In this document: positions 10,291 through 26,652 of the stretch, piece by piece
How the letters are laid out: the number at the start of each line of letters is the position of its first letter
How positions within the stretch are numbered: position 1 is the stretch's first letter
Virus record (IMG/VR): IMGVR_UViG_3300028027_000194
Span: 1-27,346 of that record
DNA from: a virus
Direction: 5' to 3' (one strand)
DNA: 27,346 bases
Translations under genes and position numbers: made by a program
Notes under the pieces: model-generated
What the model was told of the DNA's origin: nothing
The model's input: only the letters and a program-made list of their open reading frames with translations
The model's database searches: none

Positions 10291-12149
10291 TGAAAATATT
10301 AACTAACACAAACGATTTAAATATCGTGTTAAATACTGAACAAGATTTTAAAACCGATTTAGGTTGGCAAGAGAATCTTGCACAATTTGAGGATGAAATT
10401 TTAAAAGATATTATTAATCCGGCACAGAATTATGAAACCGTTAGATATATTCATAAACCATATACATCATCGTTAGGTGTTGAACAGACAGATATATGGT
10501 ATCAGTTTTATTTTTCAAGTGGTTCGACGTATGTTCAAGAATATGAGGCAGTTGGTATAACAACAACTGAAAACGAATTTATGTTGAGACAATCAACTGA
10601 AAGTTTTTTTAGGTTAGAATTTTACAAGACACCAGGAGTCATTTCGGGTAATACGTTAATTTGTGAACCACCAACAAGACAAAATAGAAGATTGGTATTT
10701 TCTAAAAATTTATCTTTACCATTAGGTGAGAAATATTTTTACAAAGGAAGTACGTTTGGTTATTACATACATTTACCTGTGTTTATGGGGTCAAATTATA
10801 AGAATAAAGAAAATATGTATTTCTTTTGGTTTGATGATGAAACCGCATTAGAAGAAACGGATTTATTAGGTGTACCAACTTTAGACAAATATATTTTTAA
10901 TAATACAGGAACAACACAAAGTCAATTTTTATTCATTGATGCATTTAAAAATACAAATAACATAGTTTTACCAATAGGTACAACAACATTATATGGTGTC
11001 ACTGGTCAAACTTTCGATATTAAAAACACAACATTCTCAGTTGAAAAACAATCAGATGGTTCACCATTTATTCACGGAATGAATACGTTTTTTATGACGG
11101 TAAGATTCTTCAATGCTAAAGACGGGTCAATTATAAATTTTAACAATGCAGTTTTTAATACAACACATAAAGTAATTGAAGAAGACGATATGTATTATCA
11201 AGTTGATTTTGATAACTACGAAAGAAATTATCAAATATTTCCATACGATGGTGAAAAGGGAACTAATAGAATTGGTAACGGTATAAATAACTCAATTAGA
11301 TTTTTTGAATTTGGTGGAGGTACATTATTGGGTGGTAACTGTACATTTACTGGAGGAACTGCTGTTTATACAAATGTAGTAGTGGGTACCCCAACACCAA
11401 CCCCAACACTAATACCCGCAACACCAACGGCAACACCAACCCCAACTCCAACACCAGATGTCCCACCACCAACGAGGACTCCAACTCCAACACCAACTCC
11501 AACTGGAGGACCAACGTTTACACCAACTCCAACACCAACACTTACTGCAACACCTACCCCTACACCAACAGCAACAACGGAAGGACCAACATTTACACCA
11601 ACACCTACCCCTACGGTAACACCTACTGCAACACCAGTTCCTGAATGTGTAATATCGGTAGGTTTTGAAGTGGATAGTCCTGGTGATGTTAGATATGTAA
11701 CTTGTTGCGGAATTACAAAATATGAAACTTTTGGTATTGGACCACAAATAATAATTGATTGTTTACAATATAATTCATTATTTGCTACATCGGCAACTAT
11801 CTCATCTATAAATTATAGTGTTTCATCTTGTACGTGTATAACACCAACACCTACCGCAACTGCAACACCAACTCCCACTCCGACCCCAACATTACCAGCT
11901 GGATTAAATGCTTTTACAGGATGTGGTAGAGGTACAAGTGAAGCAAGTGTTTGTAACGACGCTAGTACAAACAACAGAACATTATATTCTGATTGTGACT
12001 CAGGTACGTTTGGGGTTGGATGTTATGTATATGTTGACACATTCCCTAACGCATTAACAGGATACGATTACGTATTTATGAATGGTGCTACTTGGGATAT
12101 AAACTCATCAACAGGTGTTGTAACAACATACTCATCAGAACAGTGTTAA
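10290..12149 (+). CDS. Tail-associated adhesin-like protein with Pro-Thr stalk and Cys-rich tip
   Basis: A 619-aa protein from ATG 10290, which overlaps the previous stop as TAATG. A TTG 6 nt upstream is in frame but less likely. Residues 1 to about 365 form a globular beta-rich region without recognised homology, probably the attachment part. Residues about 367-451 are a TPTPT-type linker (with two [12 protein letters not shown]-like/[12 protein letters not shown] segments). Residues about 453-517 form a small Cys-containing domain ([37 protein letters not shown]), followed by a short second linker. The last about 80 residues form a terminal module beginning [16 protein letters not shown], with [19 protein letters not shown], and ending EQC. 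The terminal module resembles the ends of other proteins in this window. Likely a tail-fibre or baseplate-borne surface-binding protein; the ligand cannot be told from sequence. Confidence 0.75.
11388..11643 (+). repeat. Pro-Thr (TPTPT) linker tract in the 619-aa protein
   Basis: About 85 codons dominated by alternating ACN and CCN triplets. All four Thr codons and all four Pro codons appear, so the amino acid pattern is far more regular than the DNA. A shorter tract of the same kind follows at 11841-11899 after a Cys-rich domain. It is read as an extended, flexible stalk. Confidence 0.85.
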
Positions 12150-13433: not shown

Positions 13434-14354
13434 ATGGCAGTAGGATCATATGGAGTAGTTAGACCCGCAGATGTCTCACCGGATGACGTTGAGATACTTT
13501 ATCATTATGTACCAAATAGGTTATCGACTTCACAGGTTACTTTGAAAAAATTAACCGCAAATCAGGTTTTAACACCTATTTACCAAACATCAGGAACAAC
13601 AACCGACACCGCAGCACGAAATGTGGAAGTTTTGGGTGGATTATATAATTTAAAATTAAATGCTGACGATTTTAGTGATTTAGGAATTTATACACTTCAT
13701 TTAAGACCGAAACAAATTAGAACGTCAATTATGGATTGTGGTGTTTTAGCATCACTTCCGTCAGTTAGAGGATTAATTATTGACATTAGTAATGTTGTTC
13801 CCGCAGATAAAAATAAATTCACACCACAAGGATTAGTGGGATATAGAATTGAGTACATCAATTCAAGCGATAATAAGAAAGTAACCAATTTCTATAAAGT
13901 TGTCACATCTTCATTTTATTGTTCACCCGTTACTGCAAATTTAAGTAGCTCAACTCAAAAGTCGGTTAGATATCAATATAGTGAAGGTGCTACGAATTTT
14001 TTATTCTTAACAATAACACCATCTTCAGCACCATCTAATAAACCAAATACAGTTCCATTTATTGGACTACCAGGTCAGAAAATTATTTTAACCAACACAT
14101 ACTTCAATCCAACAACAATTGAAATTGATATGGTGGAACACGATGCTTCAACATTAGCCCACGCATTATATGGTAATCAAACTAAGGCGGTTAGTGAAGG
14201 TATTTACACAATCTACGATAAAGAAAACAATATCTATAGACAATACAATCTTTATGAAATTAAAGATGATATTCAAGAGACTCTATACGAAGTTAGAGAG
14301 AATCGTACAGATATTGATGAAACATTAAATTTCGATACAATTACTAATATCTAA
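13434..14354 (+). CDS. Putative baseplate/tail structural protein (306 aa), unknown
   Basis: I do not recognise this 306-aa protein by name. The sequence is mixed alpha/beta with no signal peptide, no membrane segment and only two cysteines. The N-terminus reads [20 protein letters not shown]; a middle region (about 85-125) has [20 protein letters not shown] and RGLIIDIS; the last about 60 residues are charged and probably helical ([20 protein letters not shown], then [20 protein letters not shown]), suggesting a subunit contact. It overlaps the start of the 1973-aa gene by one base (TAATG at 14352), so the two are translationally coupled and probably assemble together. A connector or collar for the large adhesin is a reasonable inference, not shown. 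Confidence 0.65.
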
Positions 14355-17300
14355 TGGCAAAATACAAAGTTCCGAGTCAGGCGGGTAGTGGTGCTGATAC
14401 GTTTAGTGATAACTTAGTTGGTGGTCAAATCACCACGGGTACTGGTCAATTGACCAATACTAACTTTGCACTTGACAGCGGAATTGTCCAAAGAGATACA
14501 AAGAACTTTAAAACAAATCCCTTTTCCGATTTTTTAACATTAGACGACTTAAAAGAAGAAAATGCAAGTGGTGCAACAATTAACGGTAGAACGGTTAAAT
14601 CCACAAAAAAAGAAATTAAGTTTAACAGTACAAAAAACGTTTCAGATAAATCACTATTTGGTTCATTAAAGAATAGATTATCCGTTACGGTAACAAATAT
14701 CATTAAAAACTTTCCAGCGGGAATTTTAATTGATAAAAATAGTTATGTTAGTCTTAGTGGTCTTACTGCTTTCAATTCGAGTTATAATATAAGAACAAAA
14801 ACAACAACTTTTGACGTTGAGGTAGGTATGTTACATAATCCATACGGGGTTATTCTTACTACACCTAAAAGTAACACAACAGTTAGTAGTTTAAATCCTG
14901 TTAGGGATTTTTATTCTTCATATAAAAAATATGTGATTGAGGTAAGTGGTGTAACATACAATGTAACATCATATACCGAACCAAACTCCTCAAACATTAT
15001 TAAGTTAACGGTTAGTGGTAATCCTTTTAGTGGTGCAACAACCTACAATCAGAATATACTAATTAGACCAAATAATGGTGTAAGTGAAGAATTCTTTTTA
15101 AACTTAGACGATTTAGAGAGTAGTTTATTAAACAGAGAAACATCACCAAAGTATACCGCAAGTTTTAAAGTACCAAGAGATAGTTTTGATGAAACAAAAA
15201 CGGAATTAACTACTGTTGAATATAGTTGGCCGGTTTCAACTAAGGACAATTGGAACCTATTAATTATTGGTATCGAATATGACAATTACCTTAGAAACTT
15301 AAGTGATATTGCCGATGAGATTGACGATTACAAATCTAATTTACTCATTAGATTTTTAAGTTCACCACAATTATTTGAATTTGATTCAGATGGAAAAAAG
15401 GCAGAAGCTGTTTTTCAACTATACGGTCAAAGTTTTGATAAGGTAAAAAAATACATTGATAACATTGCGTTTATGAGAAACGTAAGTTATGATAATGTTA
15501 ATAATTTACCTGATATATTATTAAAAAATCTATCTAACACATTAGGTTTAGATACGGTTAATTTAATTAATGAAAGTGGTATTGATGAATTACTTTACAC
15601 TAAAACAATTCAATACGAAGGTAAACCAAGTGGTATTTCATTAGTTGAGGCTGAATATGAATTTTATAGAAGATTATTAGTTAATCTTGCTCACATATAT
15701 AAATCAAAAGGTACAAGAAAATCTATTGAATTCTTTTTAAAATTCTTGGGTGCACCTGAACCTATGATTAAGATTGACCAATACGTTTATAAGGTTAATA
15801 GATTCCCAATCTCATATGATTTAGAGGATGAAATAGACGATGTTATTCGTGGTGATAAAAGATATACAACTGTTGGATTTTTACCTACAGGTGGTACAGT
15901 TAATGGAGTTACATATACGGCTTACAAATATTATCCGATAACAACAACAGGTACAACATCATTAGATAGAGACGGTTACCCTGTTCAAGAATTATCTTTT
16001 TACCCACAATCAATTAGTGGTGTGACAGGTGAATTGTTTTTCCAAAAAGGTTCTGGTTGGTATGATAATACCGTAGACCATAAATCACCATTAATTGTTG
16101 ACGAAGAAAAATCTATATTAACAGGTAGAACAAAAACCGTTATAACTAAGAATAGTCCATTCACTTATGGTGAGGATTATTTTAACGTTTATAGAACTTT
16201 ACCCGGATTAGATACGGGTTATGAATTGTTTAGTGTTGTTGATAACGTTAAAGGTGAAATATTAAATGATGATTCTAATTTAACACTTAATAGAAAAAAC
16301 TTATCAGTTTATTTATCCGCATCACAGGCTGTTGATTATGACATATATCGTAAATCAAGAGATTTAAATTTAACATTTGGCACTAATAGTTTAGAACCAC
16401 AAAATGATGTATCGTTTGCAGAATATGTTGATAATTTACTAAACCAACAAATTTTAAATTCTAATTTAATTAAGTACAAGAAAAACTATATTCAATTAGA
16501 AGATATTTTTAGAAGTTATATTACTCATACTGGTTTTACACCATATAATTTTACTAATGTTAATGAATTCATTAATAAAATGAGTCCATATTGGGTTCAG
16601 GTATTAGATCAAATAATACCCGCAACAACATTATGGACAGGAGGTAATTTAGTTGAAAACAATATTTTTGGTAGGTCAAAATACAAACATCAATATGGAT
16701 GTCAACCGGTAACAATAATTGAAGATTTATACCCACAAATCCCAAATAACGTAACAGGTGTTACCGATTATTTTGAATATGCGATGGGTGTTGCTAATTA
16801 TGAATTTAGATTTTCTTCTGGAGTAACTTGGAATGGTATTTCATTTACAGGTGAAACTAATCAATTAGGTGAATACAAATATGATGGATTTGTACAATTC
16901 ATTCCTGTTTTTGACGTTGACGGAAAAACATATTCCGGCAACACAAGTAGTACTGATTATTATGTTAACGTCTCAGGATATTTTTCTAATACAACGGGAA
17001 CAACAAAAAATGCTAGGTTATATAAAACTCCCGATAATTTAAATCTTGGAGATTTTTATGATTTAGTTGGTGGTACGGGAAATATTATTAATCCCGATTA
17101 CACGTCAATAAAATTATTATGGAAAGGGGCGGTATCAAAAATCATAGATGATATAATTAACACTAGTGAACAAATTGATGGTCCAGGTGTAATAAATTCA
17201 TATGCACCATATACAGGTGCAACAGGATCAACATCAACTAAAGTCAACAAAAAAATACTTTCATATAATTTTTTTACTGATGAAAATGGTGTCGATAAAA

Positions 17301-20275
17301 TAAAATTAACATCCTTCAAATATGGACCAAATGATTGTACTGATATTAGTGATTATTATTTGGACCCTGAAGTATTTGGTAATAACGATAAGGTTGATTG
17401 TGTATTGACAGGATATACCGCTTCATACCAAATGGCAACCCCTACACCAACCCCTACACCGACCATAACTCCAACACCAACAGTAACTCCTACAGTTACA
17501 CCAACTGCAACACCTACAAGTACACCCGAACCAACATATACACCTACACCAACACCAACAATAACAGGTACGCCAACAGTAACTCCTACTATAACACCAA
17601 CACCAACTGTCACACCTACTGGAACCCCTACACCAACACCTATTTGTGTGTTTGATGTGGATATTGAAATTATAACCAGCACTCCAACACCAACACCTAC
17701 CGCAACTCCAACCTGTGACTTTGATGTGGATATTGATATTATAACTAGTACTCCAACCCCTACACCTACCGCAACTGTCACACCAACTCCGACACCAAAT
17801 TGTAATTTTGATGTTGATATTGATGTGATAACTAGCACTCCAACACCAACACCTACCGCAACTCCAACCTGTGACTTTGATGTGGATGTGGATATCATAA
17901 CTAGTACACCGACACCAACACCTACTCCAACGGTAACCCCAACACCAACACCGGATTGCAACTTTGATGTTGATATTGATATTATAACAAGCACTCCAAC
18001 ACCTACACCAACGGTAACGGTTACACCTACACCAACACTCGATTGTAATTTTGATGTTGATATTGATGTTATAACTAGTACTCCAACACCAACACCTACT
18101 CCAACTGTAACTCCAACCCCTACACCGGATTGTAATTTTGATGTTATCGCCGATATTGTAACAAGTACACCAACCCCAACCCCTACTGTAACTATTACAC
18201 CAACACCAACGGTAACGGTTGATATATGTATCGATTGTCCTGAAGGTTACGATTGGGTACGGGCAAATGATGACACGTGTACAGCAAAGGTAACAACATC
18301 AGTTACACCACCATCTGTTTCATTAACGGCATACACTAGAGAATTTAAAAGATATAGTATGTACGGTACCAACGTTTATATGCCTGGATGGTCAAGTAAT
18401 GGTACTGGTGATGTTGAAATAACATTAGAAACAACAGAACTTTGGAAAAACACACTTTCCTCAAATACAAATGGACCTTGGAACGGACCATTAAATAGAA
18501 CGGGACTTTGGGCTTATCCTGAAAATAACGATGCAACCGATTATCCACTTAATACTTGGTTAGGATTTACATATTGTTTAAGTAATATTCAGGGAGGTCA
18601 ATATTATATTGGTATTGCTGCCGATAATGAATTTAGATTAGAAATAGACGGAAATCCAATATTAGATACATATACAAATAGTGGATTAAGTGATTTATCA
18701 AAATTTGAAAGTTGGCACGTATATCCGGTAACATTAACCGCAGGAAATCATATTATTGGTTTATATGGTTATAATCTTAATGTGACTGGAACTAATCCTG
18801 CAGGATTTGGTTGTGAAATTTACAACAACACATTAAGTGAGTTAATTAATGCAACAAGTTTAAATGACCTCGATGTTATATTCACATCGACCAATTTCGT
18901 TAATCAAACAATACCTGTAATAAAAGATGTTTATGGTAATTATACAACATCAGGTTATACTTGTCCAAGTGGTTATGAATATGCCCCTTGTGATGGTAAT
19001 TGTTGGAAAATATTGACTTGTCCCGAAATAACACCAACTCCAACGGTTACCCCAACAGGTACTCCAACGGTTACTCCTACGGGCACACCAACAGTAACTC
19101 CTACGGGTACGCCAACGGTTACTCCTACGGGCACACCAACTGTTACACCAACACCAACACCTAATTGTTATTTTAATGTGGATGTGGACATAATAACCAG
19201 TACGCCAACACCAACACCTACTTCAACTGTAACACCAACCCCTACTGTTACTCCAACCGCAACACCAGATTGTTATTTTAATGTTAGTGCTGATATTGTA
19301 ATAAGTACACCAACACCAACTCCAACTATAACACCAATACCTACTGATACACCAACTCCAACACCTACTTTAACAAGTACACCAACTGTTACACCAACAA
19401 GTACACCTACGGTAACACCAACAAGTACACCAACTGTTACACCAACAAGTACACCTACGGTAACACCAACAAGTACGCCAACTGTTACACCAACAGGTAC
19501 ACCTACGGTAACACCAACTGTAACTCCAACAGCAACTCCTTTACCTTGTGTATGTTGGACAATATATAACGAAGGTGGTACAACAGGAAACTATACCGTA
19601 ACATTATGTGGTGGAATGGTAACATCACCTAATTTATTACCTGGTAGTAGTAGATCACACTGTCTACAAGCGGGAACATACCCAATAATTAATTCAGGTT
19701 TATTAACTGATGTTGAATGTGGTAATACTTGTTATGTAAGTAACGAATGTACATATTGTGGACCAACCCCTACACCAACTCCAACACCAACCGCAACACC
19801 TACAGTTACACCAACCCCAACACCAACAGCAACACCTTGTCCGGTATATGGAACATTATTATATGATTATTGTGAAGGAGGACCGGATTATAACAGAATT
19901 GGTGTATTTGCCATTGGAGATTGTGGTTCATACACAGATGTTTTAGTGTATAATGATGAAACTTGTGGATATATACCACCAACCTCAACACCAACACCAA
20001 CACCAACGGCTACACCATTACCACCAACATATGAAACTGTTACCCTATCACCAGGTGGTACGGTTGCAGATGCTTGTAACTCGACTGTTGGTTCTGGTAT
20101 ATACTACCTTCCAGCGGGAGAATCTTTCTCTTACGCTACTCAAATATTTAGTACAAACACAGGTACACAAGCAGATTCTGGATGGTACTCAAATGGATTG
20201 ATAGCTAAACAATGGGACGGTTCTCAAATAACTCAAACAACATCTTGCGATGGTGGACCACTTGAAATTGAATAA
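14354..20275 (+). CDS. Giant tail protein: tail-protein-I-like N-terminal half fused to a Pro-Thr-linked multi-domain adhesin
   Basis: A 1973-aa protein, the largest here. Residues 1 to about 1025 look like a tail/baseplate component. Residues 335-400 ([20 protein letters not shown].. to LSNTLGLD), 436-467 ([20 protein letters not shown], then [11 protein letters not shown]) and about 745-785 ([32 protein letters not shown]) resemble the conserved core of phage tail protein I-like families. From about 1028 on it is a string of modules joined by TPTPT linkers: seven CxF[D]V repeats (1098-1285); CPEGYDW Cys motif (about 1294); a PA14/jelly-roll-like domain (about 1320-1500: [17 protein letters not shown] at 1417-1433, [20 protein letters not shown] from 1454); CPSGYEY..C; two further CxFNV repeats (from about 1605); a Cys-rich domain ([11 protein letters not shown]..); a [19 protein letters not shown] domain; and a terminal [14 protein letters not shown] tip. 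Likely a receptor-binding protein. Confidence 0.8.
17435..17643 (+). repeat. Pro-Thr linker, first tract of the 1973-aa protein
   Basis: About 69 codons of TPTPT-type sequence directly after the N-terminal tail domain (after TASYQMA), with interspersed Val, Ile, Ala, Ser, Glu, Tyr and Gly at alternate positions. Thr and Pro codons are mixed, so there is little exact DNA repetition. It marks the junction between the virion-anchored part and the displayed modules. Confidence 0.85.
17645..18217 (+). repeat. Seven-copy CxF[D][13 protein letters not shown] array
   Basis: Tandem in-frame units begin with Cys codons at 17645, 17714, 17801, 17870, 17957, 18044 and 18131, giving spacings of 69, 87, 69, 87, 87 and 87 nt (23 or 29 residues). 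Each starts Cys-x-Phe-Asp-Val, continues with an acidic DxDxD-like strand ([16 protein letters not shown] in the last copy) and ends in a TPTPTPT linker. The 6-residue length difference is entirely in the linker. Two further related units start at 19166 and 19271 ([12 protein letters not shown] and [12 protein letters not shown]). Confidence 0.9.
19040..19159 (+). repeat. 24-nt tandem repeat (PTVTPTGT), five units
   Basis: Units start at 19040, 19064, 19088, 19112 and 19136 with a period of exactly 24 nt, each encoding PTVTPTGT or a close variant. The units at 19064 and 19112 are the same sequence (CCAACGGTTACTCCTACGGG, then CACA). High DNA identity suggests recent expansion by slippage or unequal recombination. 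Confidence 0.85.
19382..19519 (+). repeat. 48-nt tandem repeat ([16 protein letters not shown]), about three units
   Basis: Near-identical units start at 19382, 19430 and 19478 (period 48 nt = 16 residues), beginning CCAACTGTTACACCAACAAG; the third differs by few bases (AACAGG for AACAAG) and is partial. Each 48-nt unit is itself two related 24-nt halves, so it probably arose from the same kind of 24-nt unit as the upstream array. Confidence 0.85.
19765..20027 (+). repeat. Distal Pro-Thr linkers of the 1973-aa protein
   Basis: TPTPT linkers at about 19765-19840 and 19979-20027 flank a small module ([43 protein letters not shown]). The final linker leads to the terminal tip domain that ends the protein. 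Confidence 0.75.
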
Positions 20276-20321: not shown

Positions 20322-20765
20322 ATGAACGTAACATTTACATTAACGGCAGGATCAGCATTAACTGCGGCTGGACCGTTTAACATCTCAGGAACAACCTCCT
20401 CAAATGTGGTTAGTGAACTAGCAACAGGAATTACTAAGGATCAGTTATTAACAGGTCATACAATTAATAGTGTTAATGATGCTATTACGGGAGGCACAAT
20501 TGCTAGTACAGGAACTTGTACAACTACAGATACGTGGTCAGTCAATAATGACCCAATCGTATATACATATGATTGTATTGATGGGTCTTGTTTTGAAGTA
20601 GAAGGAACAGGAGGTACATATGGTACATTACAATTATGTCAGGGATCTTGTTCTGGAGGTGGTAGTGGTAGATACGATTGTACACTTAGTGGTTGTGTTG
20701 AGGCAGTTGATGGGGATTTCGCCACATATCAGGATTGTGTCAGCTCTGGCTGTGCACAACCATAA
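20322..20765 (+). CDS. Small modular virion protein with twin Cys repeats
   Basis: A 147-aa protein. Residues 1 to about 70 (FTLTAGSALTAAGPFNISGT, LTGHTINSVNDAITGGTIAS) form a Gly/Thr-rich domain, perhaps an anchor. The second half holds two Cys repeats of about 28 residues: YDCIDGSCFEVEGTGGTYGT then LQLCQGSCS, and YDCTLSGCVEAVDGDFATYQ then DCVSSGCAQP. Both follow Y-D-C-x(3-4)-C-x-E..Y..(T/Q)xxC-x(3)-C, joined by a GGGSGR linker. The four-Cys pattern suggests a disulfide knot or a metal site. There is no signal peptide, so it is presumably added to the virion in the cytoplasm. It sits between the giant adhesin and two other modular adhesins and has its own terminator, so it may be expressed as a separate unit. 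Function unknown; a surface-binding decoration is inferred. Confidence 0.72.
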   Translation: MNVTFTLTAGSALTAAGPFNISGTTSSNVVSELATGITKDQLLTGHTINSVNDAITGGTIASTGTCTTTDTWSVNNDPIVYTYDCIDGSCFEVEGTGGTYGTLQLCQGSCSGGGSGRYDCTLSGCVEAVDGDFATYQDCVSSGCAQP

Positions 20766-20787: not shown

Positions 20788-20817
20788 AAAAACCCCCTTT
20801 ATTATAAGGGGTTTTTT
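20788..20817 (+). terminator. Rho-independent terminator after the 147-aa gene
   Basis: AAAAACCCC (20788-20796) pairs with GGGGTTTTT (20808-20816) around an 11-nt loop, or CCCCTT with AAGGGG around a 6-nt loop, followed by T to 20817. It ends transcription between the 147-aa and 801-aa genes; a TATTTATA element lies just after. Confidence 0.92.
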
Positions 20818-20849: not shown

Positions 20850-23255
20850 ATGCCCGAATATTTTAGTGTTAATTTAAATCTTGGTAAAAAAGGAAACTCT
20901 ATTGAAAGAGTGAGTTTATACGCTTGTTCAGGAGATAATGAAAATACGTGTGAAGCCACACCAATAAGTGGATATGATAATTTATTATGGACTGACCAAA
21001 AATTTTCACCACAATATCAAACTAGTCCCGAAGTTTCAATAACGGGTTTAACTACATTTTTAACAAATTTAATTTTATATACACATACATATATAAAAGT
21101 AAGTGTTACATCTAGTTATTATGGTAATTGTGTTGTAACAAGAATGATACCAATTTCAGGTATTCCAACTCCATCACCTACACCAACAGCGACCGCAACT
21201 CCAACACCAACCCCAACCCCTACATCGATACCTTGTGTTATGAGCGGTGGTTCCGCAGTATATACCACAGAACCAACCCCAACTCCAACCCCAACCGCAA
21301 CACCAACTGTTACACCGACACCTACAGCAACACCGACGGTTACACCTACACCAACAGCCACATCCATCGGATATTCATCATTTACAATTTATGTAGACAC
21401 ATCAAATAATGGTTTAGGTTGGTCTACAGGTGAATTAGCGTGTGCGGGTACTGGTACAAGTAGAACGATGTATGTTGACGGTACAGGTTATTCTAGTTTA
21501 TATGACGCTGTTGTGACAAGTGGTAAATCATTACACACCGGTTCAACAATCAACGAAAGTACATTATTTGATGGAGGAGATTTATGGTATAAAACAGTTG
21601 AAAATCCAAACGAAGGAGGTAATTTTAGAATATCACCAATTGGTGAAGTACCAACATTTAACCAAACAGGTTGTGTATTAACACCATCATACGGAATTAG
21701 TGTAAGTCCAACTACCGCAGATGACGGAGGAGGAGCATTTACCGCAACTGTAACCGCCGCGAATATATCATTCCCTCAAACACTTTATATTACAATATTA
21801 AGTACTGTCGGTACAGTTAATTTATTCGACTTCCAAAATGGTTTCCCATCATCTATTTCGTTAACAGAGTCAGGACAAGAATTTTCTTTCTCATTAGCGG
21901 AAGACCAATCAACAGAAGATACTGAGAAATTTAAATTACAACTTAGAAGTGAAAGTGCTTCAGGTACTATATTAGCAACCTCAAGTGAGATAACAATTAC
22001 GGATGGTTCGTTAGATATTTATTATTATACATTAGCACCTTGTGCGGGAGGTTCTAATTTATATTCGACAGGATATCAACAGGGAACATTTAGTTCTCGT
22101 CAAAGAGTTCAAGGAAGTTCAAATACTTATTATGTAATTGCAGGTTCATCAACGACAGATCCTGGAGGTAATAAAATAAGTGTGACACCTGTGGATGGTC
22201 AATTTGAGTGTCCAGAAGTGGCCCCACCGCCAAATCCGGATAGAACTATGTATTTTATACAAACCGGTACAACACAACAAGTTAATGAATGGTGTTCAAA
22301 TACTGCTTCACCTGTAACTACAAATGGTGGATACAATGTTTATATAACATATAATTTAGCACCATTAACACCACCAAATACGTATACCATATATAAAAAT
22401 CCATCAGACGGGGATAGTGAATTATTCCACAACCCTGGTCCAAATAATCAAAGTGAATATATTCCATTTGTTTTATTTGGTGGAAGTCCAACAAAGGTTA
22501 TTTGGAAAGGTAGTATAAGTCCATCTAGTGTTATACAAGATTGGACTCAATGTACATTAAATACAACGCCAAATTGGGTATCACAATACTCAACGTGTGA
22601 TAATTGTACAACTTATACCGTTTATTTAGATACAAATACAAATTCGGCAACATCAGGACGTTACAAATATAATGATATAGTTAGAGACTCCCAACCAAGC
22701 AACGGGGCTTGTAACACATCACAAGTACAAGGTAGTCAAATAGGAACACGACACTACTGTCAAGTTGATAATGAGTACACTGGACAAGGTGATGTTTACA
22801 CCGAGGCAATTTATGGAAATAGTAACTCTTGTTATAGTGGACCCGATACATTCCTATGGAACGGTTCGTGGGTATCAAGTAACCCATCGAATAACGAAAG
22901 TGATGTTAGAGGAGAAAATTGGTTAACATATGATACTAATTGTATTGGTAATGTTACAAAATATAGTCAAAAAGATTGGGGACCTTGTTCTTTAACATTT
23001 GGTGATACACGAACAATTGATGGCCCATCTTGTGGTGATTACACAACTTACGGATATTATACATTGAGTTGTGAGGGTATCGATGGGGGAGGTACCGAAT
23101 ATACCATAGTTTACAGTAGTGATTTTAATAATTATCGATTAGATGACGGAAATGGTTCGTTGGTTACTGGTGTTTATTATAACATTGACACACGTAGAGC
23201 AACATATTTTGATAATGGGTCATTATTAAGTACAGATTCATCAAGTTGTGATTAA
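20850..23255 (+). CDS. Modular adhesin-like protein with Pro-Thr linkers and a Calx-beta-like domain
   Basis: An 801-aa protein. Residues 1 to about 104 form an N-terminal domain ([47 protein letters not shown]) related to that of the 331-aa gene downstream, probably a common virion anchor. Residues about 106-171 are TPTPT linkers split by a short Cys segment ([14 protein letters not shown]). Residues about 174-276 resemble the Cys-flanked tip modules ([25 protein letters not shown]). Residues about 281-386 look like a Calx-beta domain: [47 protein letters not shown], ending SSEITITD; this family often binds calcium. The remaining about 415 residues are Cys/Tyr/Ser-rich beta modules with CxxC ([14 protein letters not shown]) and end in SSSCD. 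It is preceded by a terminator and a TATTTATA element, so it starts a new transcript. Likely a fibre or host-surface binder. Confidence 0.75.
21166..21362 (+). repeat. Pro-Thr linker tracts in the 801-aa protein
   Basis: Two TPTPT tracts (about 21166-21228 and 21274-21362) on either side of a 15-residue Cys-containing segment. Codons for Thr and Pro are mixed, although [18 protein letters not shown] in the second tract repeats at DNA level with few changes. Confidence 0.82.
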
Positions 23256-23274
23256 AAATAAAAAATAAAAAGAT

Positions 23275-24270
23275 ATGAGTTTTTCATCAGTAATAAATTT
23301 AGGAACGTTTAGTCCAGCAATCACAAAGGTAAAATTATCGGCGTGTACGGGGTCAACTTGTGATAATCCCGTTGTTATAACTGGTTATGATAATTATGAT
23401 GTTTGGTCAGGAACAAAAACTATAAGTGGAATACCTGATACTACAAATTACATAAAAGTTGAAGCTTTAGGTACTTGTGCCGATACAATACAATGTTTAC
23501 AAATAAGTGGTAAACCCGGTACACCAACCCCAACCCCTACGGCAACGCCAACGGTTACACCTACCCCAACACCAACAATTACATCAACACCAACAGGTGG
23601 AGGAGTTCAAATTACAAATTGTGTGAGATTAGTAAAAGATGATGCAATAGCAAGTACCGATTGTTCATCTGATAGGGTACAAAGACACGAAGTGACGTTA
23701 TATGACCCAACCGGTGCCAATATACAAAATGCACCATATGATATAACCGTTACTTTATCGGGTACTACGGCAGGTCAACCATCAACTTGGACTTTAGTCA
23801 TTCTTTCTGGAACTAACTCAGCATATGAAGATATTGTTACTCGTGAGTTCCCAACTTGTGGAAATAAAAATGGTATGATAATTAGATATGTTTCAGGAAT
23901 AACGGCAGTATCACCTACCAATATTGGACAATGTAGTCCAGCACCTACACCAACAGGAGGAGTTACACTAAATAGATTCTATTATGGTCAGGGGCTTTCA
24001 ACAGCTGGTGCTCATTGTGGAATTGATTACTCAATAAGTGCATCATTTTTCTCTGCCGCATCAACCATAAGTGAATTATTTAATGGGGCTATCTACACCA
24101 CCGCAGACGGAACAACAGCATTTAATGGATTGGGTAATTATTACCCAGTTAGTTTAACTAGTGGAACAAGTACATTAAATGGACTATATAATGCCATAAA
24201 AATAAATTCAAATGGATTTGTTGAGGATTTAGTGTTTGTTAATGGTGGTTGTAGTGAGAATCCATATTAA
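23275..24270 (+). CDS. Modular adhesin-like protein sharing its N-terminal domain with the 801-aa protein
   Basis: A 331-aa protein. Residues 1 to about 82 (FSSVINLG, ITKVKLSACTGSTC, VITGYDNYDVW, NYIKVEALGTC, CLQISGKPG) parallel the start of the 801-aa protein: same order of FS..NLG, V.L.AC.G, I.GYDN..W, YIKV, G.C, ISG. A short TPTPT linker follows (about 83-108). Then comes a beta domain (about 112-222: VQITNCVRLVKDDAIASTDC.. to FPTCGNKNGMIIRYVSG), a PAPTPTGG hinge, and a terminal module (about 236-331: FYYGQGLSTAGAHCGIDYS, NGAIYTTADGTT, GNYYPV, ending NGGC) like the tips of its neighbours. It has no TATTTAT element: the 19-bp gap is A-rich (AAAATAAAAAATAAAAAGAT), so it is probably expressed from the 801-aa gene's transcript. 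Likely an alternative or companion tip protein on the same anchor site. Confidence 0.72.
   Translation: MSFSSVINLGTFSPAITKVKLSACTGSTCDNPVVITGYDNYDVWSGTKTISGIPDTTNYIKVEALGTCADTIQCLQISGKPGTPTPTPTATPTVTPTPTPTITSTPTGGGVQITNCVRLVKDDAIASTDCSSDRVQRHEVTLYDPTGANIQNAPYDITVTLSGTTAGQPSTWTLVILSGTNSAYEDIVTREFPTCGNKNGMIIRYVSGITAVSPTNIGQCSPAPTPTGGVTLNRFYYGQGLSTAGAHCGIDYSISASFFSAASTISELFNGAIYTTADGTTAFNGLGNYYPVSLTSGTSTLNGLYNAIKINSNGFVEDLVFVNGGCSENPY
23521..23597 (+). repeat. Pro-Thr linker in the 331-aa protein
   Basis: About 25 codons of TPTPT-type sequence ([20 protein letters not shown]) between the N-terminal anchor-like domain and the first Cys-containing domain. It is shorter than the linkers in the other adhesins. 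Confidence 0.8.
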
Positions 24271-24297: not shown

Positions 24298-26652
24298 ATG
24301 AGTTTTTTAAATAGTAACAACGCAGAATATTTATCAGCAAGAATCACCCAAAAAGGGAGAAGAGCAATTGCTAATGGTAATTTTAAAATTGAATATTTTC
24401 AAATTGGAGATTCTGAATTTGATTACTCAACTACGTTAACAAATCAAAAAGTTTTTTCACCTTTAGATAAAGAAGGTGGTGTAAAATATCCATTTAAATT
24501 TGATAATTCATCTACTGTTACAACATATGGTAGTCCAATATCTAACTATATGGAACCCGTACCATTGAGAAATGCGATGAGTCCGGCTGGATTTGTTTCT
24601 TACTCAAATGCACCAACTATTGAATGCTCAACACAAAAAATACCTTTTACACATATTAGTGGAACAACAAGTTTAGTTGTTTTAACAGGAAATACATATC
24701 AAAATACGGAATTTATTACGGTTTCATTTAAACCATTCTCAGGAGGTACAAATACTATTACAGGAATTACAAATAGTTTAGTTTATAAAGTTTTAAGTAT
24801 TAGTGGTAACACTTTGACATTAGATAGAGCTTTACCAACGTTAACAGGACTTACAGGTAATGTTGAGGTTGTATGTAATAAATGTTATCCTGAAATAATA
24901 GACGACACACAATTAGACCCTTGGACAATGAATATTGTATGGGATAAGGATATTATAGGTGGTAAAATGGTAGATGATATATCTATTGAGGAATCACTAA
25001 CTGGTTATACAAGTAATATTTATCAATCAACCAAACAATTTTTAGGATACACCACATCAAGTGGACAAACATTTGTAAGTGAGCAAGGATGGTCATCCAC
25101 AGGGTTTACTATCACAGGTACGTCATTTGCCAACTCAATGTCAACCGGTTCAACAGATGGTGATGATATTATAATGGTTAGACCTGAAGATCAAAGAACA
25201 ATTGCAATAATACATTATTCGGAATTAGGTGATATAGATAATAATCCCGAAAGATTTTTTAAATATGATGATTATATAAGTTCATTAACAGGAACCACAG
25301 GAAGTACTGTAGCAGTTGATGAAAATGGAGACGATATATCTGATTTGGATTATTTTGAAGTTTACATACCATTTATTTTATACCATAGAACAAAATGTTT
25401 TAAAAATATTAAGATAAATGTAACAACCGCAGGAAGTTTTATTTATAAAGATTGCGATGGAGACACCCAACCTACGTTAACGTTATCAGTTGGGAATAAT
25501 CAAGTAATAAGTAATGTAAATGTAGGTACAATTTCTGGAACTTCTGTGTACACGATTTCAGAATATACTGAACCAAATACAATTGGTGCAAAGTTTACAA
25601 TGGATAAAACACCATATTTTGTTAAATCAAAAATAACAACAACTAAACAGGTATTAGAATTTCGTTATCTTTTAGATGAAAATGGTTATAAAGTTGGTAA
25701 AGTGTTTATTAATAATAAAATAATTGTTTTTGATGATCAAGAATTAGTGGCGGCTTTAGATTATAGAAGTAATAGAAAATATACATTACCATCGCCAAGA
25801 GTTTTTGCAACACCATCTAATAGTACTGCAGATAATTCAATGTTACAAGGAACCACCGGAACCACAGGACAGACAGTATGGATTACCTATATGTTTGAAT
25901 ATACTGGAGATACTAAAATGAATTCATTACCCTGTAATTATTTTAATAAAGTTAGTTTACGTGATGTAAATGGTGAATGTTCATTTTCATCACCATCAAA
26001 CGTATCATTTAAATTTAGTGACAATACATTAACTGAATTAAATTTCTTAAAAACAAATATAACCGGAACAACTGAGTCATTAGTTGATGGTTTTGTTGCT
26101 AATAAATTTACCGCATTAGTACAAATTGTTAATAGTGCAACAGGGTCACCAAAACCAAATGAGTGGAGAAAAATAGATTTAACATCACAGGTTGGAGGAA
26201 ATGGAGTAACACTTTTAAATAAAACAGGATTTACAGGTACTACTTTCACAATCACTAAAACACAATACGATGCTGCGTCATCTAATAAATTTGATTTAGA
26301 AACACATTTTTCAGGACTAACAACAAATTATTTAGGTGACACCAATAGTACAACACAACCTCAATTTGGTGACGAACAACCATTCCCTGGTAGTATTAAA
26401 TTAGTTAGAGCTTCCGATATTGAACAACTGAATTTTTTAATTAATTTACCAACAGGAACATTTGGTGACATTCCAAACAATGAGAGGGGTATTTCACAAA
26501 ACCCAACATACCCAACAACTGGAACGACTTCCACATACATTACCGAAGTTGCATTGCTTAATTCTAATAAAGAACCTTTAGTAATAGCTAAAACCCCAAC
26601 CCCAATTAAAAGAGCCGGTACACAAGTGTTTGCGGTTAAATTAGATTTCTAA
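24298..26652 (+). CDS. Tail fibre-type virion protein (784 aa)
   Basis: A 784-aa protein. The N-terminus (MSFLNSNNAEYLSARITQKG, then RRAIANGNFKIEYFQIGDSE, FDY) follows the pattern of myovirus tail-fibre or fibre-attachment proteins, 'YLsArlT..GRraIa.GnF....F.iGDsE.dY'. The C-terminal about 35 residues (TYITEVALLNSNKEPLVIAK, TPTPIKRAGTQVFAVKLDF) also have a tail-fibre look, with the ITE-alpha-L pattern and P-I-K-R. The middle is Thr/Gly/Asn-rich beta sequence with a few scattered cysteines (for example VCNKCYPE at about 196). No membrane segment, signal peptide or Pro-Thr linker is visible. Its start is set by the TATTTATA element 4 nt before the ATG. It probably attaches to the baseplate beside the modular adhesins; whether it binds receptor or only connects other fibres is not visible. 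Confidence 0.7.
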   Translation: MSFLNSNNAEYLSARITQKGRRAIANGNFKIEYFQIGDSEFDYSTTLTNQKVFSPLDKEGGVKYPFKFDNSSTVTTYGSPISNYMEPVPLRNAMSPAGFVSYSNAPTIECSTQKIPFTHISGTTSLVVLTGNTYQNTEFITVSFKPFSGGTNTITGITNSLVYKVLSISGNTLTLDRALPTLTGLTGNVEVVCNKCYPEIIDDTQLDPWTMNIVWDKDIIGGKMVDDISIEESLTGYTSNIYQSTKQFLGYTTSSGQTFVSEQGWSSTGFTITGTSFANSMSTGSTDGDDIIMVRPEDQRTIAIIHYSELGDIDNNPERFFKYDDYISSLTGTTGSTVAVDENGDDISDLDYFEVYIPFILYHRTKCFKNIKINVTTAGSFIYKDCDGDTQPTLTLSVGNNQVISNVNVGTISGTSVYTISEYTEPNTIGAKFTMDKTPYFVKSKITTTKQVLEFRYLLDENGYKVGKVFINNKIIVFDDQELVAALDYRSNRKYTLPSPRVFATPSNSTADNSMLQGTTGTTGQTVWITYMFEYTGDTKMNSLPCNYFNKVSLRDVNGECSFSSPSNVSFKFSDNTLTELNFLKTNITGTTESLVDGFVANKFTALVQIVNSATGSPKPNEWRKIDLTSQVGGNGVTLLNKTGFTGTTFTITKTQYDAASSNKFDLETHFSGLTTNYLGDTNSTTQPQFGDEQPFPGSIKLVRASDIEQLNFLINLPTGTFGDIPNNERGISQNPTYPTTGTTSTYITEVALLNSNKEPLVIAKTPTPIKRAGTQVFAVKLDF

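Follow-up and report, generated by a model that had tools for sequence, protein, structure and literature searches.

A shared N-terminal domain precedes exchangeable tips in a tail-gene cassette of uncultured phages: a candidate anchor module

Three consecutive genes on a 27-kb uncultured viral fragment (IMG/VR record IMGVR_UViG_3300028027_000194, positions 1 to 27,346; hereafter the window) encode proteins of 147, 801, and 331 residues that begin with homologous copies of one domain and continue into different distal parts, or tips. In related uncultured phages, the same domain lies at the N terminus in a single copy, is encoded in a cassette between conserved tail genes, and precedes many different tips, some of which also occur on tail proteins with built-in N termini. 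Because the domain is N-terminal and single-copy, stays within particular gene slots, mostly tracks the tail backbone, and has tips that are found elsewhere on built-in N termini, we consider it best explained, with fair confidence, as an anchor (mounting) module for accessory tail adhesins. Modular anchors are known chiefly from cultivated phages that infect enteric bacteria. This domain, which has no Pfam or PHROG family, would flag exchangeable adhesins in many large, uncultured phages and help to locate their host-contact proteins and whichever genes differ when the host changes.

Homologous N-terminal domains in three consecutive genes

An initial annotation of the window, made from the DNA letters and their translations, had proposed that the 801-aa and 331-aa proteins share an N-terminal domain through which each would bind the virion at a fixed site, with an exchangeable distal part behind it. 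The homology was confirmed. The first 106 and 81 residues, respectively, align end to end, with a Smith-Waterman score of 79 compared with a shuffle mean of 27 (standard deviation 4.9; 0 of 5,000 shuffles reached 79), a BLASTP E value of 6e-7, and an hhalign probability of 97% (E 3.5e-11) for two alignments without common rows, one per protein. The motifs listed in the initial annotation (FS..NLG, V-x-L-x-A-C-[ST]-G, I-[ST]-G-Y-D-N-x-x-W, YIKV, G-x-C, and ISG.P before a TPTPT linker) are all present and in order, with G-x-C reading GNC and GTC and ISG.P reading ISGIP and ISGKP in the 801-aa and 331-aa proteins, followed by the Pro/Thr linker. Their spacing departs slightly from the listed pattern: the gap from FS to NLG is 3 residues and that from GYDN to W is 2 versus 3. 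Past the linker, the two proteins differ, as had been noted, with no similarity there (best E 0.46). A third, more diverged copy that the first reading overlooked opens the 147-aa protein; it matches the family profile described below at E 1.7e-25 when included in that profile and at E 7.5e-14 when its whole subfamily was withheld from training. This copy belongs to subtype TFTLT..AGPFNISGTT, which characteristically occupies the slot that follows the 1973-type gene; the family profile detected no domain in the remaining open reading frames (ORFs) of the window (Table 1).

Rather than unrelated folds, which the initial annotation had held to count against a shared domain, both N termini are predicted to form Ig/FN3-like beta-sandwiches, with the same main strand order in models built from alignments without common rows. 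The 331-aa domain model is compact and FN3-like, with a predicted local distance difference test score (pLDDT) of mostly 81-95, and the 801-aa domain model is compact and Ig/FN3-like, with a mean pLDDT of 76. For both models, most of the top structural matches are Ig/FN3 domains; FnIII-15 (5m0a) is in both lists (Z 5.4, root-mean-square deviation [rmsd] 3.1, 75 aligned; Z 5.8, rmsd 3.4, 80 aligned), where Z scores below 8 may mean a common arrangement only and lend no support for descent or function. A BFVD structure search returned nothing below E 0.001, the fourth-ranked match being a 75-aa uncultured phage fragment with a template modeling score of 0.72 (by its length) and E 0.057.

Table 1. 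Features of the candidate anchor-tip cassette and its flanks (window coordinates)
Feature	Position	Strand	Basis or remark
1973-aa protein	14354-20275	+	5' flank of the cassette, source of shared tips
147-aa ORF	20322-20765	+	third domain copy, adjoins the 801-aa ORF
Domain copy 1	20322-20555	+	residues 1-78 of the 147-aa protein; profile match
147-aa distal part	20556-20765	+	short, Cys-rich, without Pro/Thr linker; translation
Terminator-like hairpin and T-run	20794-20811	+	between the 147-aa and 801-aa genes
801-aa ORF	20850-23255	+	ORF translation
Domain copy 2	20850-21167	+	residues 1-106 of the 801-aa protein; alignment, BLASTP, shuffles, profile
801-aa Pro/Thr linker	21168-21371	+	two tracts with a Cys-containing mini-module between
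801-aa distal (tip) region	21372-23255	+	tip comparison
331-aa ORF	23275-24270	+	ORF translation
Domain copy 3	23275-23517	+	residues 1-81 of the 331-aa protein; slot immediately 5' of the 784-aa gene
331-aa Pro/Thr linker	23518-23601	+	translation
331-aa distal (tip) region	23602-24270	+	BLASTP against L013
784-aa protein	24298-26652	+	conserved 3' flank of the cassette

A single-copy N-terminal family bound to gene slots

Direct scans with a two-row alignment of both N-domains or with the 331-aa protein returned zero relatives, and a route through the flanking genes succeeded: conserved flanking proteins used as bait gathered 157 related loci (numbered with the prefix L), and two additional scans using domain subfamilies added 98 more. 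An iterated profile run over 6,350 distinct ORFs in 257 sequences, window included, identified 174 distinct ORFs that bear the domain. It starts at most 12 residues from the first Met in 166 of the 174 (one is truncated at its 5' end and seven deviate), and no ORF has two copies (0/174). A Pro/Thr tract is present in 122 of the 170 ORFs that have at least 30 residues past the domain, and 119 of these 122 tracts lie within 30 residues of it. As a guard against profile drift, three subfamilies were omitted from training in turn; the resulting profiles regained 50/60, 44/64, and 26/50 of the omitted members (E<1e-3), along with 0-2 non-family ORFs.

Most domain ORFs sit in one tail-gene block, between the 1973-type and 784-type genes and downstream of baseplate wedge genes, in the recurrent order 621-389-306-1973-[0 to 4 domain ORFs]-784-RuvC (numbers are protein lengths). 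An extra subfamily, RYFxVKITSGTSxGPYNIYYD (RYF-type), often sits 5' of the 389 gene. In a tree built from 89 domain sequences, slot labels changed 12 times compared with 38.6 times after shuffling (minimum 32), and 5 compared with 21.1 times (minimum 15) when only the after-1973 and before-784 slots were considered; these shuffles do not account for plain descent of paralogues.

Domains and tips are exchanged in both directions

The expectation of an exchangeable distal part was borne out: the profile search proposed in the initial annotation found the domain widely fused to other tips in related phages, one domain preceding many different tips, and swaps run both ways. The domains of L046 and L056 are 90% identical and their tips have no detectable similarity, and the domain of the 801-aa protein is 68% identical to that of L064, with nothing alike past it. 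Conversely, the tips of L062 and L135 are 99% identical over 184 residues and their domains about 30% identical, and direct BLASTP puts the 331-aa tip at 67% identity to that of L013:8840-9967 across 212 aa. The exchange extends beyond the family, since the tips of 48 of 104 domain ORFs resemble distal regions of 1973-type or 621-type proteins or, in one case, a 389-type protein, all of which carry a large built-in N terminus; the tip-sharing partners are mostly 1973-type. In the 801-aa tip, for instance, the stretch at 21513-22256 aligns over 264 columns, at 56% identity, with the distal region of a 1973-type tail protein from L145. Tips borne by both domain-bearing and built-in tail proteins amount to natural fusion experiments on what an anchor requires. 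Shared exact words in linker DNA (15-22 nt) were no longer than in synonymous-codon shuffles, giving no trace of recent exchange via the linkers within the window.

Similarity matrices for domain, tip, and backbone, compared per slot, showed that the domain follows the neighboring backbone protein both after 1973 (r 0.36, p 0.010) and before 784 (r 0.42, p 0.001), and that tips in the after-1973 slot do not track the backbone (r 0.08, p 0.23). Where backbones are close, the domain is still similar in 64% and 38% of pairs and the tip in 8% and 14%. Domain subtype tracks gene slot and tail backbone better than tips do, with the backbone contrast clear in one of the two slots.

A probable mounting module and its alternatives

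As an anchor, the Ig/FN3-like beta-sandwich of about 80-105 residues would fix accessory adhesins to a T4-like phage, at its tail or baseplate, and the Pro/Thr linker would keep an exchangeable host- or surface-contacting tip clear of the particle. The 147-aa, 801-aa, and 331-aa proteins, encoded in adjacent slots that two conserved tail genes bound, would carry three versions of this module, each probably specific for a different site. These proteins would then be present in the virion, with the domain binding a fixed site, as the initial annotation supposed, by docking on the 784-aa, the 1973-type, or another tail protein; different slots would use different sites, and the tips may bind receptors. 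The 784-aa protein, strongly conserved (about 49-82% across 15 sampled relatives), is a candidate docking partner. A more specific version of the anchor proposal, which we offer tentatively and hold to be possible rather than probable, is that of keyed sockets: an undescribed Ig-like docking domain whose slot-specific versions mount up to four interchangeable tips per tail, with tips also moving on and off the distal ends of built-in proteins. If this were true, several host contacts could be changed independently with the backbone untouched.

Several observations weigh against an anchor. In four of the seven deviating ORFs (L194, L202, L203, and L204), the domain is internal and follows a long Pro/Thr tract, as a bead-like module would. 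The before-784 slot holds several domain subtypes, and there the tip tracks the backbone as well (r 0.36, p 0.001). The N-domains of the 331-aa protein and its L013 relative are only about 33-35% identical, so conservation in this pair is higher in the tip than in the domain. Vertical inheritance of paralogues, instead of docking, could produce the correlations with slot and backbone. The structural matches are middling, with Z at most 6, and Ig/FN3-like folds serve many functions. The four internal-domain ORFs (L194:9017-12706, L202:9092-10864, L203:5455-7293, and L204:8105-10213) look as if neighboring genes had fused, or like beads.

One rival reading takes the domain for a generic adhesive bead of Ig/FN3-like fold that touches host or environmental glycans, its N-terminal place incidental and the proteins being adhesive strings joined by Pro/Thr tracts. 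The predicted fold, the internal copies after Pro/Thr tracts, and the ability of phage Ig-like domains to mediate adhesion (PMC13370021) all agree with it, and because of the internal copies and the Ig-like fold, this reading stays alive, although we judge it unlikely. Unlike bead modules, the domain is N-terminal in nearly all members and never repeated within an ORF, and its subtype follows slot and, clearly in one of two slots, backbone rather than tip. A conserved N-terminal domain followed by differing ends would look the same if it were an oligomerization or folding cap common to fibers, for instance one for trimerization, with another part of the protein making the attachment. Phage tail proteins are often trimeric. 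Such a cap is nevertheless improbable: it leaves the slot-specific subtypes unexplained, and the predicted domain is a compact single-chain beta-sandwich with no intertwined trimer, a form that monomer prediction cannot exclude.

Two further explanations are less probable still. Head decorations of the Hoc type, or secreted or host-acting proteins, would account for Ig-like domains, which T4 Hoc has (PMC13370021), but we think this very improbable, as conserved tail genes flank the domain genes on both sides, the block as a whole follows baseplate wedge genes, and tips are shared with proteins of this same block that have a large built-in N terminus. Convergence or composition bias among beta proteins rich in Thr and Ser, without a shared function, has next to no probability; the proteins are indeed rich in Thr, Ser, and Gly, but the profile E values and hhalign speak against this reading, and the shuffle and leave-out tests exclude it. 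We therefore retain an anchor module as the best explanation of the domain.

Phage context and database searches

Upstream of the cassette, the window encodes the large subunit of ribonucleotide reductase and two baseplate wedge proteins, one of which (610 aa) is 26-29% identical to proteins of Flavobacterium phage immuto, Microcystis phage Mel-JY01, and a 484-kb metagenomic phage; downstream are the conserved 784-aa protein and a RuvC-like resolvase. Given the wedge-protein matches and the flanking genes, the source is therefore most likely a T4-like contractile-tailed phage, and related contigs reach 336 kb. A lineage such as the moraphages, aquatic T4-like jumbo phages of Bacteroidota with a gp25 baseplate protein (PMC12619734), is a possible context for the window phage, to be taken as a lead only.

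Scans of 37 domain members against PHROG gave no match, and against Pfam (fn3, Big_2, PKD, and BACON included) gave none above the curated threshold, the best being a lone hit to fn3 at E 0.0064; taken by themselves, the three N-domains of the window also had no Pfam match. A weak match of phrog_19893 to the 147-aa protein (E 3.7e-4) was rejected, domain members alone matching no PHROG, and matches of PDB chain 8zvk and phrog_15511 to the Pro/Thr linker were discarded as low-complexity. Among 50,697 GenBank phages, we found no relative with the 331-aa protein, the 147-aa domain, or the RYF-type domain as query, no match to the 784-aa protein or the N-part of the 1973-aa protein, and a single weak match to the 801-aa protein (E 0.2), outside its N-domain. 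Two subfamily scans of bacterial genome contigs yielded no confirmed relative, a weak negative, as few peptide patterns were used. LR756508, immuto, and Mel-JY01 share baseplate proteins in their tail regions, but a profile scan found the domain absent from these regions. For the flanking proteins, the 1973-type N-part and the 784-type protein, there was no recognized family, only one weak single-member tail match (PF18994), and the N-terminal motif region of the 784-aa protein weakly matched immuto protein 164 (E 9.5e-5).

Relation to known anchor systems

The general kind of system, a modular anchor, is known. Like known anchor modules, the window domain is N-terminal, precedes an exchangeable distal module, and is encoded in a tail/baseplate block; the domain family itself, its use in multiple slots, and the freely shared tips appear to be new. 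In the receptor-binding proteins of Klebsiella phages KP32, KP34, KP36, and K11, N-terminal modules act as autonomous anchors (PMC8262889). There, too, a small N-terminal module precedes an exchangeable, horizontally moved specificity module, and more than one such protein per phage is possible. The Klebsiella anchors, however, are bounded after a long alpha-helix for which the P22 tailspike served as model, and rebooted phages were used to test them, whereas the window domain is a predicted Ig/FN3-like sandwich followed by Pro/Thr linkers, with a putative role in attachment.

Phage CBA120 (Ackermannviridae) likewise places several distal proteins on one tail baseplate, assembled via conserved N-terminal beta domains of TSP4 comprising an anchor and XD domains (PMC8825819). 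In contrast to that arrangement, the window system has one single-domain family across parallel slots. The TSP4-N anchor is an intertwined triple-stranded beta-helix. The single-chain window models are beta-sandwiches, but an intertwined trimer would be invisible in monomer prediction. No XD-domain chain was among the profile matches or the structural matches listed, an absence that excludes nothing. T4 Hoc and the BACON/PKD adhesins of gut phages resemble the window domain in their Ig-like beta-sandwiches, often encoded near structural genes, and many phages with Ig-like structural proteins or adhesins infect Bacteroidota (PMC13370021). The gut-phage adhesins combine BACON, PKD, and other Ig-like domains, whereas the window domain is N-terminal, single-copy, and without an accepted Pfam match.

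Linker modules and upstream signals

The 1973-aa protein has a conserved built-in N-part up to about 17362 and Pro/Thr-linked distal modules from 17426. Between its Pro/Thr tracts, a mini-module of roughly 27 aa with the motif C[ND]FDVD[IV]D[IV] occurs about nine times (17651-18217 and 19172-19300), and similar Cys-Phe-Asp mini-modules are seen in the linkers of relatives (e.g., L003, L008, and L033). The 621-aa protein likewise ends in Pro/Thr linkers and a Cys-rich tip (window 11382-12146).

The terminator-like hairpin upstream of the 801-aa gene suggests that this gene may start a new transcript; the terminator scan overall was near chance, with 9 found and 7.5 expected. The word TATTTATA occurs at 2235, 13415, 20298, 20838, and 24286, 4-16 nt 5' of the ATG of the 149, 306, 147, 801, and 784 genes. 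Its count across the whole window is not above chance, whereas it is present in 46 of 78 distinct 60-nt stretches upstream of 784 homologues compared with 40 of 4,000 random 60-mers. It is possibly a late promoter or a translation start signal, and it often takes the form AAAGATATTTATAACAT-ATG.
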